Shown here: positions 50,127 to 54,034 of the stretch, one piece after another
Numbering within the stretch: the first letter of the stretch is position 1
Layout of the letters: each line of letters starts with the position of its first letter
Assembly (NCBI GenBank): GCA_945872155.1
Contig: CAMBYK010000001.1
Span: forward strand, 1-54,034
Source: an uncultured Candidatus Saccharibacteria bacterium
Lineage (GTDB): Bacteria > Patescibacteriota > Saccharimonadia > Saccharimonadales > Saccharimonadaceae
Direction: 5' to 3'
DNA: 54,034 nucleotides
The notes under the pieces: generated by a model
Told to the model about the DNA's origin: nothing
What the model saw: the letters and a program-made list of their open reading frames with translations, nothing else
The model's database searches: none
Position numbers and translations under genes: made by a program

Positions 50127-51415
50127 CAATAGAGCCCTCTTTTTTCGCGACGGCGCACAGCGGCGGGCTCGCGACGTGGCAATTTGTCTGCATCCTCAGG
50201 GTTTTTTAAGAGTTTTTCGATAATCCACTCGAGGTATTGACTGCCCTTGAATAAAAGAATTTCTACACCAGTGCTACGCTTTTCGATAAACTCTAGGGCT
50301 TCCCTAGGATCTTCGGTGGTAAAAACTGGGATATTTTGTTCTTTAAGTAGTGGTGCAGTATATTTTTTGGTGCGACGGCCGAGCAAAATCACTTGCTCCG
50401 GCTTAACCTTGGCGATCTCAGCAGCCAGAGCGATATGCTCTTCGCTTTCTATGCTGCCCTGCTCTACCATGTCACCAATAATCAGCCACTTATGGCTGGC
50501 CCTAATTGAGCGAAACATCTCTAAAATAGCTCTTAGGCTAATCAGATGCGCGTTGTAGCTACTGTCGATAATCTTGAGCCCTTTTCTGCCCTCGAAGAAA
50601 GAGTTGCGGCCTGGCGGCAGCGGCATATAAGAAAAATCCGAGTTGGGCTGCATATTGAGATATTCACAAAGATGGATCAGCATGGAGAGCTGAATGCTGA
50701 GGTCGCGCGAAAAAGGCGCCGCAAACACAAAAGTATTTTTGGCAAAGGTGAACTCTGTGCTACTGGGGCGAACTTGATACCGCCTGAGCTCAGACTTCGA
50801 ACATTTGACAGTCTCAGCTCTGATAGCATGTTTGGCAGTGATTTTTTCAATAGCTTTGACCATCAGAGGCGAATCGCTGTCGATAAAAATGCGTTTGGTA
50901 GTATATTGTGGCAACATAGCAAATTCATGGCAAATAGCCTTGTCGATATTTTCAAAATCGCCCGAGGTAATTTGTGATTCGAACTGCACGGCGTGCGAGC
51001 GGCCAAGCGAGATCCATAGCGTCACCTCCGGCTTGAGCCAGCTAGCCAAAAATTCGGCCTCATGGGGGCGTTCGCCATCAATCTCCACCACGTAAAAGCG
51101 CTCGTGATGGCGGAAAAAGATTGCCCGAATGGGAGCCGCCAGCAGCAGATAAAACCATCTGGCGCGCGAGCCAGTGACGCCGCGTAGCCCCAAAATATCG
51201 AAGGCAATGCCAAAAGCAGAATTAGCATCATGGGAATAATGAGCCTTTTTGTCTAGCTGTTGCTCTAAAAGGTGTAGCATTGTAGTCTTGCCTACCGATC
51301 CGGTGATGGCGATAATCCGTGGTTGCCATTTTTGCAAAGAAAAATTAGCAAAAAATCTAAAGTAGCCAGCGGCGATAAAATAGAAGCGTTTTTTGAAACG
51401 CGCAAAATTTGTCAT
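50126..51415 (-). CDS. Mur ligase family protein (MurF-like)
   Basis: A 429-aa ATP-dependent ligase. The P-loop is ITGSVGKTT (37-45), the central domain has YVVEIDGERPHEAEFLASWL, and the C-terminal domain has PPGRNSFFEGRKGLKIIDSS followed by YNAH and KWLIIGDMVEQG, all typical of MurF. MurF adds D-Ala-D-Ala to the UDP-MurNAc tripeptide; here, with FemAB and hydrolase genes, it may be the housekeeping MurF or a variant. The start at 51415 was preferred to 51508 because the -10 box lies six nt before it, implying a leaderless mRNA; no Shine-Dalgarno is seen. Confidence 0.82.
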   Translation of the reverse strand: MTNFARFKKRFYFIAAGYFRFFANFSLQKWQPRIIAITGSVGKTTMLHLLEQQLDKKAHYSHDANSAFGIAFDILGLRGVTGSRARWFYLLLAAPIRAIFFRHHERFYVVEIDGERPHEAEFLASWLKPEVTLWISLGRSHAVQFESQITSGDFENIDKAICHEFAMLPQYTTKRIFIDSDSPLMVKAIEKITAKHAIRAETVKCSKSELRRYQVRPSSTEFTFAKNTFVFAAPFSRDLSIQLSMLIHLCEYLNMQPNSDFSYMPLPPGRNSFFEGRKGLKIIDSSYNAHLISLRAILEMFRSIRASHKWLIIGDMVEQGSIESEEHIALAAEIAKVKPEQVILLGRRTKKYTAPLLKEQNIPVFTTEDPREALEFIEKRSTGVEILLFKGSQYLEWIIEKLLKNPEDADKLPRREPAAVRRREKRGLY

Positions 51416-51421
51416 ATAGAT

Positions 51422-51427
51422 ATTATA
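51422..51427 (-). promoter_or_regulatory. Extended -10 promoter placing the start at the Mur ligase ATG
   Basis: Minus-strand TGC-TATAAT ends six nt before the ATG at 51415. No good -35 box. It is the only promoter seen for the four-gene envelope operon (51415 down to 46337). Confidence 0.55.
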
Positions 51428-51470
51428 GCAAACAAGCGGAAGGTTTTCGAAAAGTTCCACGCTAAGGCAC

Positions 51471-51500
51471 AAAAATCCCCCAGATAGGCTGAGGGATTTT
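51471..51500 (-). terminator. Terminator after rpsJ
   Basis: A 12-bp stem with one G-U pair (51489-51500 with 51472-51483) and a 5-nt loop begins 13 bp after the rpsJ stop; the minus-strand 3' arm ends in ATTTTTG. Confidence 0.8.
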
Positions 51501-51513
51501 GCGCTCAAATAGA

Positions 51514-51840
51514 TTACATTTTGATTTCGGCATCAACGCCAGCAGGAAGAGCAAGATTCTGCAGAGAATCAATGGTCTTAGGTGTGGCATTGGTGATGTC
51601 GATCAAGCGCTTGTGAACTTTCATCTCAAAAGCTTCGCCACCAGTCTTGTAGACGTGTGGAGATTTCACTACGGTGAAAGTGCTGCGCTTGGTAGGCAGA
51701 GGCACTGGGCCGCTGATGCTGGCGCCGGTGCGGATGGCGGTGTCGACGATTTGCTTGGCACTCTGATCTATAACACGGTGATCATAGGCCTTGAGGCGGA
51801 TACGAATTTTGAGACCTTCTGGTTTTTTGGCTTCGGTCAT
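51514..51840 (-). CDS. rpsJ: 30S ribosomal protein S10, separated from its operon
   Basis: A 108-aa S10 with [20 protein letters not shown], the [20 protein letters not shown] loop and [17 protein letters not shown]10 is in the 30S head and partners NusB in antitermination. It is normally the first gene of the S10 operon, directly before rplC, or follows tuf. Here it is monocistronic, with its own promoter, leader hairpin and terminator, about 37 kb from rplC. Confidence 0.97.
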
Positions 51841-51852
51841 TTTTTCCTTTCA

Positions 51853-51893
51853 ACTCCATAACCTCAGATAGACAATCGATGAGTTTTTGGAGC
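51853..51893 (-). promoter_or_regulatory. Leader hairpin of rpsJ
   Basis: In the roughly 75-nt leader, CTCCA (51888-51892 on the minus strand) pairs with TGGAG (51854-51858), and AACTCA pairs with TGAG(G)TT inside it. It ends about 13 nt before the start codon, next to GAAAGGAAA, so it could affect S10 translation. Confidence 0.45.
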
Positions 51894-51921
51894 TTGATGA
51901 TTATTGTTGATGATTGTTTTA

Positions 51922-51950
51922 TCATAGCGTAAAAGATATGGATTGTCAAG
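51922..51950 (-). promoter_or_regulatory. Promoter for rpsJ
   Basis: Minus-strand consensus TTGACA (51945-51950) and TATGAT (51922-51927), 17 nt apart. The start would be near 51915. Confidence 0.8.
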
Positions 51951-52005
51951 GCGACGAATTACTTTGCGTTGCAATCAAAACCTCTTCTTAAAATTATTAT
52001 ACTTC

Positions 52006-52195
52006 TCTCACTCTCCAACCCTCTGGCCTCCCTTAGCAGGACTTGTTCATTGCTATTTTTACAACATACGTCTGGAATAATCAGTTTTAGTCGCTACGCT
52101 TGCTGATTATTCACAGGTAAGTTGTAAAAATAGCATTCACAAATCTGGTCTAAATCTCATTATGCTAAGTGAGGCCAGAGGGTTGAAGAGTAAGA
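52006..52195. repeat. Large nested palindrome (190 bp) downstream of the FISUMP gene
   Basis: Three nested inverted repeats share one axis. The outer arms are 52006-52038 and 52163-52195 (33 bp, 3-4 mismatches, with 15 perfect pairs CAACCCTCTGGCCTC). The middle arms are TGCTATTTTTACAAC 52051-52065 with 52121-52135 (15 bp perfect). The inner arms are GAATAATCAG 52075-52084 with 52103-52112 (10 bp perfect). Unpaired segments lie between them. No coding region is apparent. It fills most of the 440-bp gap between rpsJ and the surface protein gene. It may be a mobile palindromic element, a recombination site or a long hairpin RNA. Confidence 0.85.
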
Positions 52196-52280
52196 ATAGA
52201 TAATCTCCGTATATGTCTGCCAGCATAACTCCTTCCTGCTCAAAGAGTTCAAGGCAACGGGATGCTAATGGATGGGAACG

Positions 52281-54034
52281 CTAGCGAGCTACACAGCGAG
52301 CAGACAATCCGTAGCCCTTGCCGTTGTTGTACTGGGGGTTGATGCTGCCGCTATTGAAGAACAAATAGTAAGCGCTGTTGCTGCTGAGGACAGTACCAGA
52401 CCATAGCCAGCCGTAATTGCCGCGGCTGTACCAGCTGCCACTGTAGTAGTAGACGCCGGCACGGATAAAATTGAGAGGGGGTTTAATCATTTTACTAGCA
52501 CTAATAGCGCTACTAGTGTTAATAGCTAAACCATACTTAGTATTAAGCAAGTTATAGTATGAGCTATTACCTGTATTTCTTGGCAATGTCCATCCTTTGG
52601 GGCAGATGGAGTCTGCGGCTTCTCCAGAATTGGCAGAGATTAGGCTAGCTCCGTTAGCATCTCTAGCTCCAGCCGTAACCATTGGCCAATCATAGTAGTT
52701 GCCAGCAGATTCTAGTGGAGTGCCAGTAGATGCATGTGTAGCGTCTCCTGCTATGGTGCCAGTAGCGTTGAGGTTTTGTTCTTTATAGTATTCGTATCCC
52801 GGTGCTGGTTTTAGCCAGTGCGGGCCATCACTACCATTTTCCGCCCAGCTTTGCCCAGCGGTCGATGGGCCTGCTGGAGCGGTGAAGGTACGGCCAGCAG
52901 TTAGGTCTGTATCTGCATCTGTCAGGACTTGGTTTGCAGTGGGTGAGAAAGCTAGGTTCTGCGTCATCCAGCAGTTGCCGTCTGCAAGTTTTCTCACCAC
53001 GTAGGTTTTGTTGTCTCTGGTATCAGTAAGAGTGGTTTCTGGGACTTTGTTTTTGTCGGTAGTTCTAGTAGTAGAAGTAGTAGAGACTATGTTAGAGTAA
53101 TCGGCATTATGAGTTGCTCCGTTTATATAGGCGTTTGGGGTAGGAGTGGCAGCACAAATGGCTGGAGTCATTTCCTGCATTTTAGTGATACTCCAGAGGT
53201 CTTTGGGTTGTTCTTTGGCTACACAGCGAGCAGAAAATCCATCGCCCTTGTAGAAGTTCTGGAGGTAGATGATGCCGCTGTTGAAGACCAAACCGTAAGC
53301 GTCGTCGCTGCTGAAGACAGTGCTAGACCACAGTAAACCGTAGTTGCCACGGTTGCTCCAGCTGCCATTATAGCTGTAGTAGCCGGCACGGATAAAATTA
53401 AGGGGAGATTTAATCATTCTAGCATGGCCAGCAGAACTGCCCGGTAAATTGTATTTAGTAACTATTAAGTTATAGTATGAGCTGCTACCTGTGTTTCTTG
53501 GCAGAGTCCAGCCTTTAGGACAAATAGAATCTGCGGCTTCACCGGAACTGGCAGAGATTAGGCTAGCTCCACTGGTATCTCTAGCTCCTGCAGTAACCAT
53601 CGGCCAGTCGTAGTGGTTGCCAGCAGATTCTAGTGGAGTGCCGGTAGAAGAAGGTATAGCATCTTCTTCTATAGTGCCGTCTGGATTGAGGTTTTGTTCT
53701 TTGTAGTATTCATAGCCTGGTTCTGGTTTCAGCCAGTGGGGACCGCCACTACCGTTATACGCCCAGGTTTGTCCAGTAGTAGATGGGCCTGGCGCAGTAA
53801 AGGTTCTACCGCCGTTCATATCAGTATCAGCACTTGTTAATACTTGTCCTGCATTTGGTGAGAAAGCTAGATTCTGCACCATCCAACAATTGCCGTCTGC
53901 AAGTTTCCGGACGACATAGGTTTTGTTGTCTCTGGTGTCGGTAAGGGTAGCTTCTGGGACCTTGTTTTTGTCTGTAGTGTGGAAGGTGGTGGTTTCGGAG
54001 ACTATATTAGAGTAAGTAGAATCTGGGGTTGCTC
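52281..54034 (-). CDS. Surface protein with tandem FISUMP (Fib_succ_major) domains, 5' end outside window
   Basis: The reading frame is open to the right edge, so the N-terminus is missing; about 583 codons are visible. Two tandem repeats of about 265 aa each have the FISUMP pattern: LTDTRDNKTYVVRKLADGNC then WM.QNLAFSP, SGEAADSICPKGWTLPRNTG, and a C-terminal LWS.TV..S..AY...FNSG ending SARCVA. A linker with MQEMTPAICAATPTPN separates them. A 61-aa middle segment differs at only 5 sites between repeats, while the last 58 residues differ at 21 sites plus one indel. The protein ends directly after the second repeat without a sorting signal. A surface adhesin or ligand-binding role is likely but unproven. 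Confidence 0.85.
   Translation of the reverse strand, partial: ATPDSTYSNIVSETTTFHTTDKNKVPEATLTDTRDNKTYVVRKLADGNCWMVQNLAFSPNAGQVLTSADTDMNGGRTFTAPGPSTTGQTWAYNGSGGPHWLKPEPGYEYYKEQNLNPDGTIEEDAIPSSTGTPLESAGNHYDWPMVTAGARDTSGASLISASSGEAADSICPKGWTLPRNTGSSSYYNLIVTKYNLPGSSAGHARMIKSPLNFIRAGYYSYNGSWSNRGNYGLLWSSTVFSSDDAYGLVFNSGIIYLQNFYKGDGFSARCVAKEQPKDLWSITKMQEMTPAICAATPTPNAYINGATHNADYSNIVSTTSTTRTTDKNKVPETTLTDTRDNKTYVVRKLADGNCWMTQNLAFSPTANQVLTDADTDLTAGRTFTAPAGPSTAGQSWAENGSDGPHWLKPAPGYEYYKEQNLNATGTIAGDATHASTGTPLESAGNYYDWPMVTAGARDANGASLISANSGEAADSICPKGWTLPRNTGNSSYYNLLNTKYGLAINTSSAISASKMIKPPLNFIRAGVYYYSGSWYSRGNYGWLWSGTVLSSNSAYYLFFNSGSINPQYNNGKGYGLSARCVAR

Follow-up and report, generated by a model that had tools for sequence, protein, structure and literature searches.

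A dispersed non-coding nested palindrome restricted to one genus of Saccharibacteria, with site-specific paired arms in most genomes

The window analysed here, a stretch of 54,034 nucleotides from an uncultured Saccharibacteria bacterium, contains a nested palindrome at positions 52006-52195, and its location next to a surface-protein gene raises the question of what kind of element it is. An earlier note had suggested a DGR-linked structure, a mobile palindrome or a recombination site for surface-gene cassettes. On one side of the palindrome lies a FISUMP (Fib_succ_major) surface-protein ORF on the minus strand (52281..54032; PF09603, E = 1.4e-14), which is open at the contig end and whose stop codon (TAG, 52281-52283) is separated from the palindrome by the 85 bp previously described. 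On the other side, the palindrome faces the 5' end, not a 3' end, of the gene for ribosomal protein S10 (rpsJ, 51514..51840, minus strand), which was assigned as an ORF with a protein-family match and whose product is nearest to Saccharibacteria proteins, many of them from ruminant guts. A promoter-like TTGACA-17-TATGAT sequence (51921..51949, minus strand; consensus match only) is located between the element and rpsJ. None of the six frames of 51901-52300 contained a stop-free stretch of 60 codons or more.

RNA folding of 52006-52195 yielded -92.5 kcal/mol against a shuffle mean of -40.2 (sd 3.5, n=200), which corresponds to z = -14.8 with 0/200 shuffles equally stable and verified the nesting of three tiers. 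The coordinates of all parts refer to the plus strand, the strand of the conserved motif being taken as plus. The outer arms measure 33 nt, as had been claimed, and are 91% complementary (52006-52038 / 52163-52195); the left arm, ACTCTCCAACCCTCTGGCCTCCCTTAGCA, marks the GGACTT side and is alike in all copies of the window's own genome except for single bases, and the right arm on the FISUMP side pairs with it as an inverted repeat. Next to the left arm lies the conserved GGACTTGT (52039..52046), the partner of a one-sided motif, whose GGACTT is near-invariant in an alignment (A1) of 43 cores. The middle tier also exists, with a size of 24 nt instead of the reported 15 (52051-52074 / 52112-52135, 88%); its left half belongs to a helix that covaries in relatives and its right half is defined by complementarity to the left. 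The inner 10-bp stem, GAATAATCAG / CTGATTATTC (52075-52084 / 52103-52112), was read from the sequence and recurs in the RNA fold. It is part of the inner hairpin (52075..52112), where relatives carry terminator-like A-run / T-run arms that were lost in the window copy. The conserved one-sided motif ACAAATCTGGTCTAAATCTCATTATGC (52139..52165) consists of invariant alignment columns and lies mostly in unpaired bulges. The asymmetry of the bulges is reproduced in the predicted RNA structure, where the right side has 11 and 5 unpaired bases opposite none or few on the left.

A DNA search of the window's own genome (G000; 606 kb, 43 contigs, 96% complete) detected the element twice in full and five times as a half that stops at a contig end. 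The second full copy is found on contig C36, has 98% identity and likewise lies behind a FISUMP gene. All GGACTT-side junctions (7/7) end at the same base, ...GGTTGGAGAGT, followed by unrelated DNA, and both motif-side junctions (2/2) end at the mirror position. These common termini delimit a repeated unit of 182 bp (52010..52191, plus strand) with MITE-like ends, which form an imperfect inverted repeat. The copies in G000 thus reproduce this unit, arms included, up to exact termini, in the manner of a miniature inverted-repeat element.

The family extends beyond this genome. The motif AATCTGGTCTAAATCTCATT is present with two mismatches or fewer in 63/174 genus genomes, and the covariance-model search proposed in the earlier note, here with a model built from 43 long cores of relatives, gave matches in 71/174. 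When the model was applied to 392 genomes drawn evenly from the order and representing 156 genera, the 41 matched genomes all belonged to the same genus as the window's genome. The element is restricted to one genus, non-coding and dispersed. No exact match to the 17-nt motif was obtained in viral contigs and no blastn match in phages. In open PMC titles and abstract starts, no description of such an element was found among Saccharibacteria palindromes, template-switch hairpins, terminators, convergent-gene palindromes, Saccharibacteria DGR variable regions or DGR cassette arrays.

What the members have in common is a conserved core, in which GGACTT... is paired with ...AATCTGGTCTAAATCTCATTATGC, a covarying middle stem and a terminator-like inner hairpin. 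In the core alignment, 95.3% of 1848 cells are paired and double changes occur in 30/43 pairs. The number of double-change cells was 177 versus 43.9 +/- 5.1 in shuffles, with 0/500 shuffles as good; relatedness of the sequences inflates such counts, and slid controls, which preserve relatedness, reached at most 36. This strong covariation of the stems supports the proposed selection for structure, or its active upkeep. The palindrome is thus present in multiple copies with strong covariation, and not the single copy without covariation that the earlier note had named as the contrary outcome. At four loci (L014, L213, L216 and L218), only the right half (motif and right arm, or core and right arm) is repeated in tandem, as if re-copied.

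The orientation of flanking genes was assigned for 110 copies by longest open frames, a crude approach with errors to be expected, which placed 49 copies between two gene ends, 42 between an end and a start and 12 between two starts and left 7 for which at least one side had no clear frame. Core identity amounts to 0.74 within a genome (129 pairs, leaving out three genomes with shared arms), 0.63 for the same locus across genomes (78 pairs) and 0.50 for all others (5749 pairs). Cores are most alike inside one genome, at many loci, mostly gene ends. Element loci often recur across diverged genomes, which is compatible with long residence or with hot spots. Two sites are polymorphic in the trio G056/G190/G195, whose flanks are 94-96% alike. 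At one of them, the element of G195 corresponds to a plain terminator hairpin in G056; here the end of the G195 gene is far more diverged than the flank, as read from the alignment, and the polymorphism may therefore have arrived with an imported allele. At the other site, G056 has the element, and in its stead G190 and G195 have another G+C-rich structure, similar in size. This structured insert at the element's place (L270 and L271) measures ~195 bp, and L270 yielded no Rfam match. A second hairpin family, also with gene-end arms, occupies the convergent-gene slot of L036 at L182, L192, L195, L202 and L205, some of its members sharing an inner TAAAAATTACAAC stem and a AATGCTTC-like boundary, and further hairpin types were seen in that slot at L185 and L187.

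The outer arms behave differently from the core. Most genomes contain copies with a common core and differing arms, which are near-perfectly paired over ~25 bp; four G192 cores, for example, are 0.97-0.98 alike and each has unrelated arms. A perfect arm run of at least 15 was detected in 72/95 copies and of at least 20 in 54/95, the longest being 38, compared to a run of at least 15 in 1/2000 control trials that combined arms from different copies. Identity within arm pairs is ~90-95% for ~20 positions, decreases to ~40% by +28 and reaches background further out. The arms fit a loose profile, GCTNNNAAAAANNNTTTTT, with A in 84% at +9 and T in 55-70% at +15 to +19. Arms are instead common to copies in four genomes, namely G000, G108, G111 and, for a subset of copies, G128. 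This G128 subset (L341-L344) is a sub-family characterised by the motif AATCT..ATGCTTCG and by common long arms beside unrelated genes, a second MITE-like set that is not FISUMP-linked. At L009, L010, L180 and L200, the last codons of convergent genes are mutually inverted inside the arms (e.g. both NTNK*, or SAE*).

Comparison in register of 19 same-locus arm pairs, which share loci and are not independent, revealed 185 double versus 51 single differences by hand count. Three very close same-locus pairs showed 0 double and 5 single arm differences. As close pairs contain single changes only and wider pairs mostly double changes, single mismatches appear to come first and both arms to change together over longer times. 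This in-step change could stem from selection, from template switching or from separate insertions at one place. According to PMC8794818, perfect stems are created and repaired by template switching; the hairpins described there would resemble the arms of the element in that stems are perfected by arm-to-arm copying with multi-base double changes. There the process is presented as a mutation mechanism on RNA genes, here it would concern arms in a dispersed element. Two other origins of the arms were considered and discarded. An inverted duplication of the native flank at every copy was dropped, as the arms at the two polymorphic sites, inspected by eye, match the relatives' flank on neither side, save for a few bases. 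The stem of a pre-existing plain terminator, suggested by the terminator-like arms of L047, was rejected because the element-free terminators that were inspected lack the A-run/T-run arrangement seen in the arms.

Conserved A-run/T-run hairpin arms are a usual mark of bidirectional terminators. The family fits this feature of an A-run/T-run hairpin at gene 3' ends, with five A-U pairs of the terminator-like centre kept in 37-42/43 cores. The inner arms and the gene-end position together point to bidirectional termination as the best-supported role. In the window copy the T-run is gone and the terminator-like centre lost, and a consensus scan for a G+C stem followed by a T-run returned 0 terminator sites in 51400-52500. 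The element resembles bidirectional intrinsic terminators between convergent genes in its gene-end position, in the A-run/T-run hairpin of the family and in an empty site occupied by a plain terminator; it differs from them in its length (~190 bp, not ~40), its nested tiers, its conserved unpaired motif and, for the window copy, the missing U-tract.

The covariation could also be explained by a structured RNA, either a 3'-UTR or a small RNA, that is transcribed from the motif strand and whose asymmetric loop would bind protein or RNA and whose stems would be selected for RNA pairing. The invariance of the unpaired motif agrees with this explanation, as do the core wobbles, which favour the motif strand over the other strand (165 G-T/T-G vs 30 A-C/C-A, or 51 vs 29 without fixed wobble positions) and hint at the motif strand as RNA. 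However, the outer arms have the opposite bias (46 vs 75), so that G-U wobble gives no indication that the arms are selected as RNA, and numerous double changes lack G-U intermediates. At the gathering score, Rfam yielded a tRNA as the sole match in nine related loci and none in window positions 51300-53000, where two miRNA hairpins were matched below threshold. A structured RNA is considered unlikely. Mobility leads to a further alternative. Bacterial MITEs and REP/BIME palindromes are short, non-coding, multi-copy and palindromic, as is the element, and in G000 its copies also have exact termini in common. It could be an ordinary MITE that belongs to an autonomous transposon located outside the assembly, with the arms as terminal inverted repeats, and the fixed termini at 7 sites in G000 and the four G128 copies that have arms in common and lie at unrelated genes would agree with such an origin. 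Yet the ends are mostly unshared in the genus, near-identical cores carrying differing arms in most genomes, which fixed terminal inverted repeats would not do; no target-site duplication was visible by eye at the 2 full G000 copies, and the Y1 (HUH) transposase PF01797, which would mark a REP/RAYT or IS200-IS605 system, is rare (8/174 genus genomes) and was not found in G000. An ordinary MITE is accordingly rated quite improbable. Of the proposed mobile palindrome, repetition in G000 and relatives stood the analysis, and neither a target-site duplication nor a mobiliser was found. Repetitive hairpin-forming elements of sponge mitochondria (PMC2800124) are likewise dispersed, intergenic, recurrently invading and variable between related taxa; the present element differs in being bacterial and in its conserved one-sided motif, terminator-like centre and site-specific near-perfect arms.

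The proximity to a FISUMP gene remains to be accounted for. A FISUMP-like ORF was detected within flanks of up to 1.5 kb at 15/110 copies (in G000, G104, G108, G111 and G153), so that the expected nearness to FISUMP genes holds for a minority, with none at 95/110. Where present, FISUMP lies on the motif side (15/15) and unrelated genes on the other; weaker FISUMP-like ORFs at 2/20 later loci (L347, L349) are additional to this count. Behind the G108 element come ~220-bp FISUMP domains in tandem or inverted series, and the G111 element also borders FISUMP cassettes. Both genomes encode DGRs with RT, TR and FISUMP VR, at L363 (G108:C29) and L366 (G111:C17), and VR-TR mismatches fall on template adenines in 24/27 and 14/14 cases, respectively; in G108 cassette alignments above 80% identity, 232/326 mismatches are at DGR template adenines. 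The element thus adjoins DGR-derived FISUMP cassettes in some genomes. The tandem and inverted cassette arrays of G108 (L285 5023-6332, L286 7515-8988, L287 7173-7842, L289 101-1394 and L290 3-1298) have constant edges and variable middles and look like a store of variable regions made by DGRs. The 85-bp position behind a FISUMP gene, these bordering cassettes and their adenine mismatches would all speak for a DGR target hairpin that follows the variable region of the FISUMP gene. Against it, reverse transcriptase (PF00078) was detected in 98/174 genus genomes and not in G000, and it is not associated with the motif (37/63 motif-positive vs 61/111 motif-negative genomes, p = 0.64); most copies are away from FISUMP genes. 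Long nested palindromes of another kind were observed behind the VR stop codons at L363 and L366, and the covariance model found no match in six G108/G111 RT loci. With different hairpins at the DGR VR genes and no model match there, the element does not appear to be the DGR target hairpin. The DGR target hairpin/cruciform (PMC3240598) is alike in being structured DNA near a variable gene; it is much smaller than the element, and in BPP-1 it is situated within 24 bp downstream of VR, compared to 85 bp here. A DGR target hairpin is rated extremely improbable, and a general DGR link, as read in the earlier note, is not supported. A single-strand recombination site for cassettes of surface genes, attC-like or otherwise, would fit variable arms that are recognised by structure, and also the one-sided arrangement of FISUMP and unrelated genes. 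The R-box pair of integron attC sites is GTTRRRY / RYYYAAC. Neither box occurs on either strand of 52006-52195, so that an integron attC site is not supported, and no cassette is present at most copies; recombination sites of this kind are rated very unlikely. No moving junction was observed at FISUMP cassettes beside the element.

We consider that there is about an even chance that the palindrome belongs to a genus-restricted family of dispersed terminator-like hairpins, present here as a MITE-like unit, and that its arms stay matched through template switching or through selection. The inner A-run/T-run hairpin of the family would terminate transcription both ways and insulate neighbouring genes. 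Copies would spread or be homogenised through recombination or a transposition enzyme, and locus-specific arms would be kept complementary by fold-back template switching in replication, by hairpin selection or by both. Termination, mobility and the arm mechanism are inferred with certainty falling in that order. Several points count against this explanation. The window copy lacks a terminator-like site and faces the 5' end of rpsJ, and neither a target-site duplication at the two full G000 copies nor a mobiliser was found. Imported alleles could account for the polymorphic site, identical cores could also result from gene conversion without transposition, and the recurrence of loci is compatible with long residence. 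The positional base profile of the arms is not predicted by plain template switching, and the wobble balance of the core hints at RNA of the motif strand. A bolder version, tentative and rather doubtful, describes a mobile hairpin defined by its short core and structure, which would gain or rewrite its ~25-bp terminal arms by fold-back copying at each new site. One core would hence carry unrelated near-perfect ends within a genome, and in some lineages the hairpin would reside beside arrays of DGR-made surface-protein cassettes.

Dispersed hairpins are common, and a conserved core between site-specific yet near-perfectly paired arms is unusual. With about a hundred copies, with pairs at the same locus and with sites in filled and other states, one genus offers a natural test of hairpin upkeep by selection versus template switching. 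The host genus, one of tiny parasitic bacteria, belongs to the genome-reduced Saccharibacteria, and the element bears on how transcripts end between their tightly packed genes. The tandem DGR-derived FISUMP cassettes beside elements in a relative suggest a cassette reservoir for surface variation.
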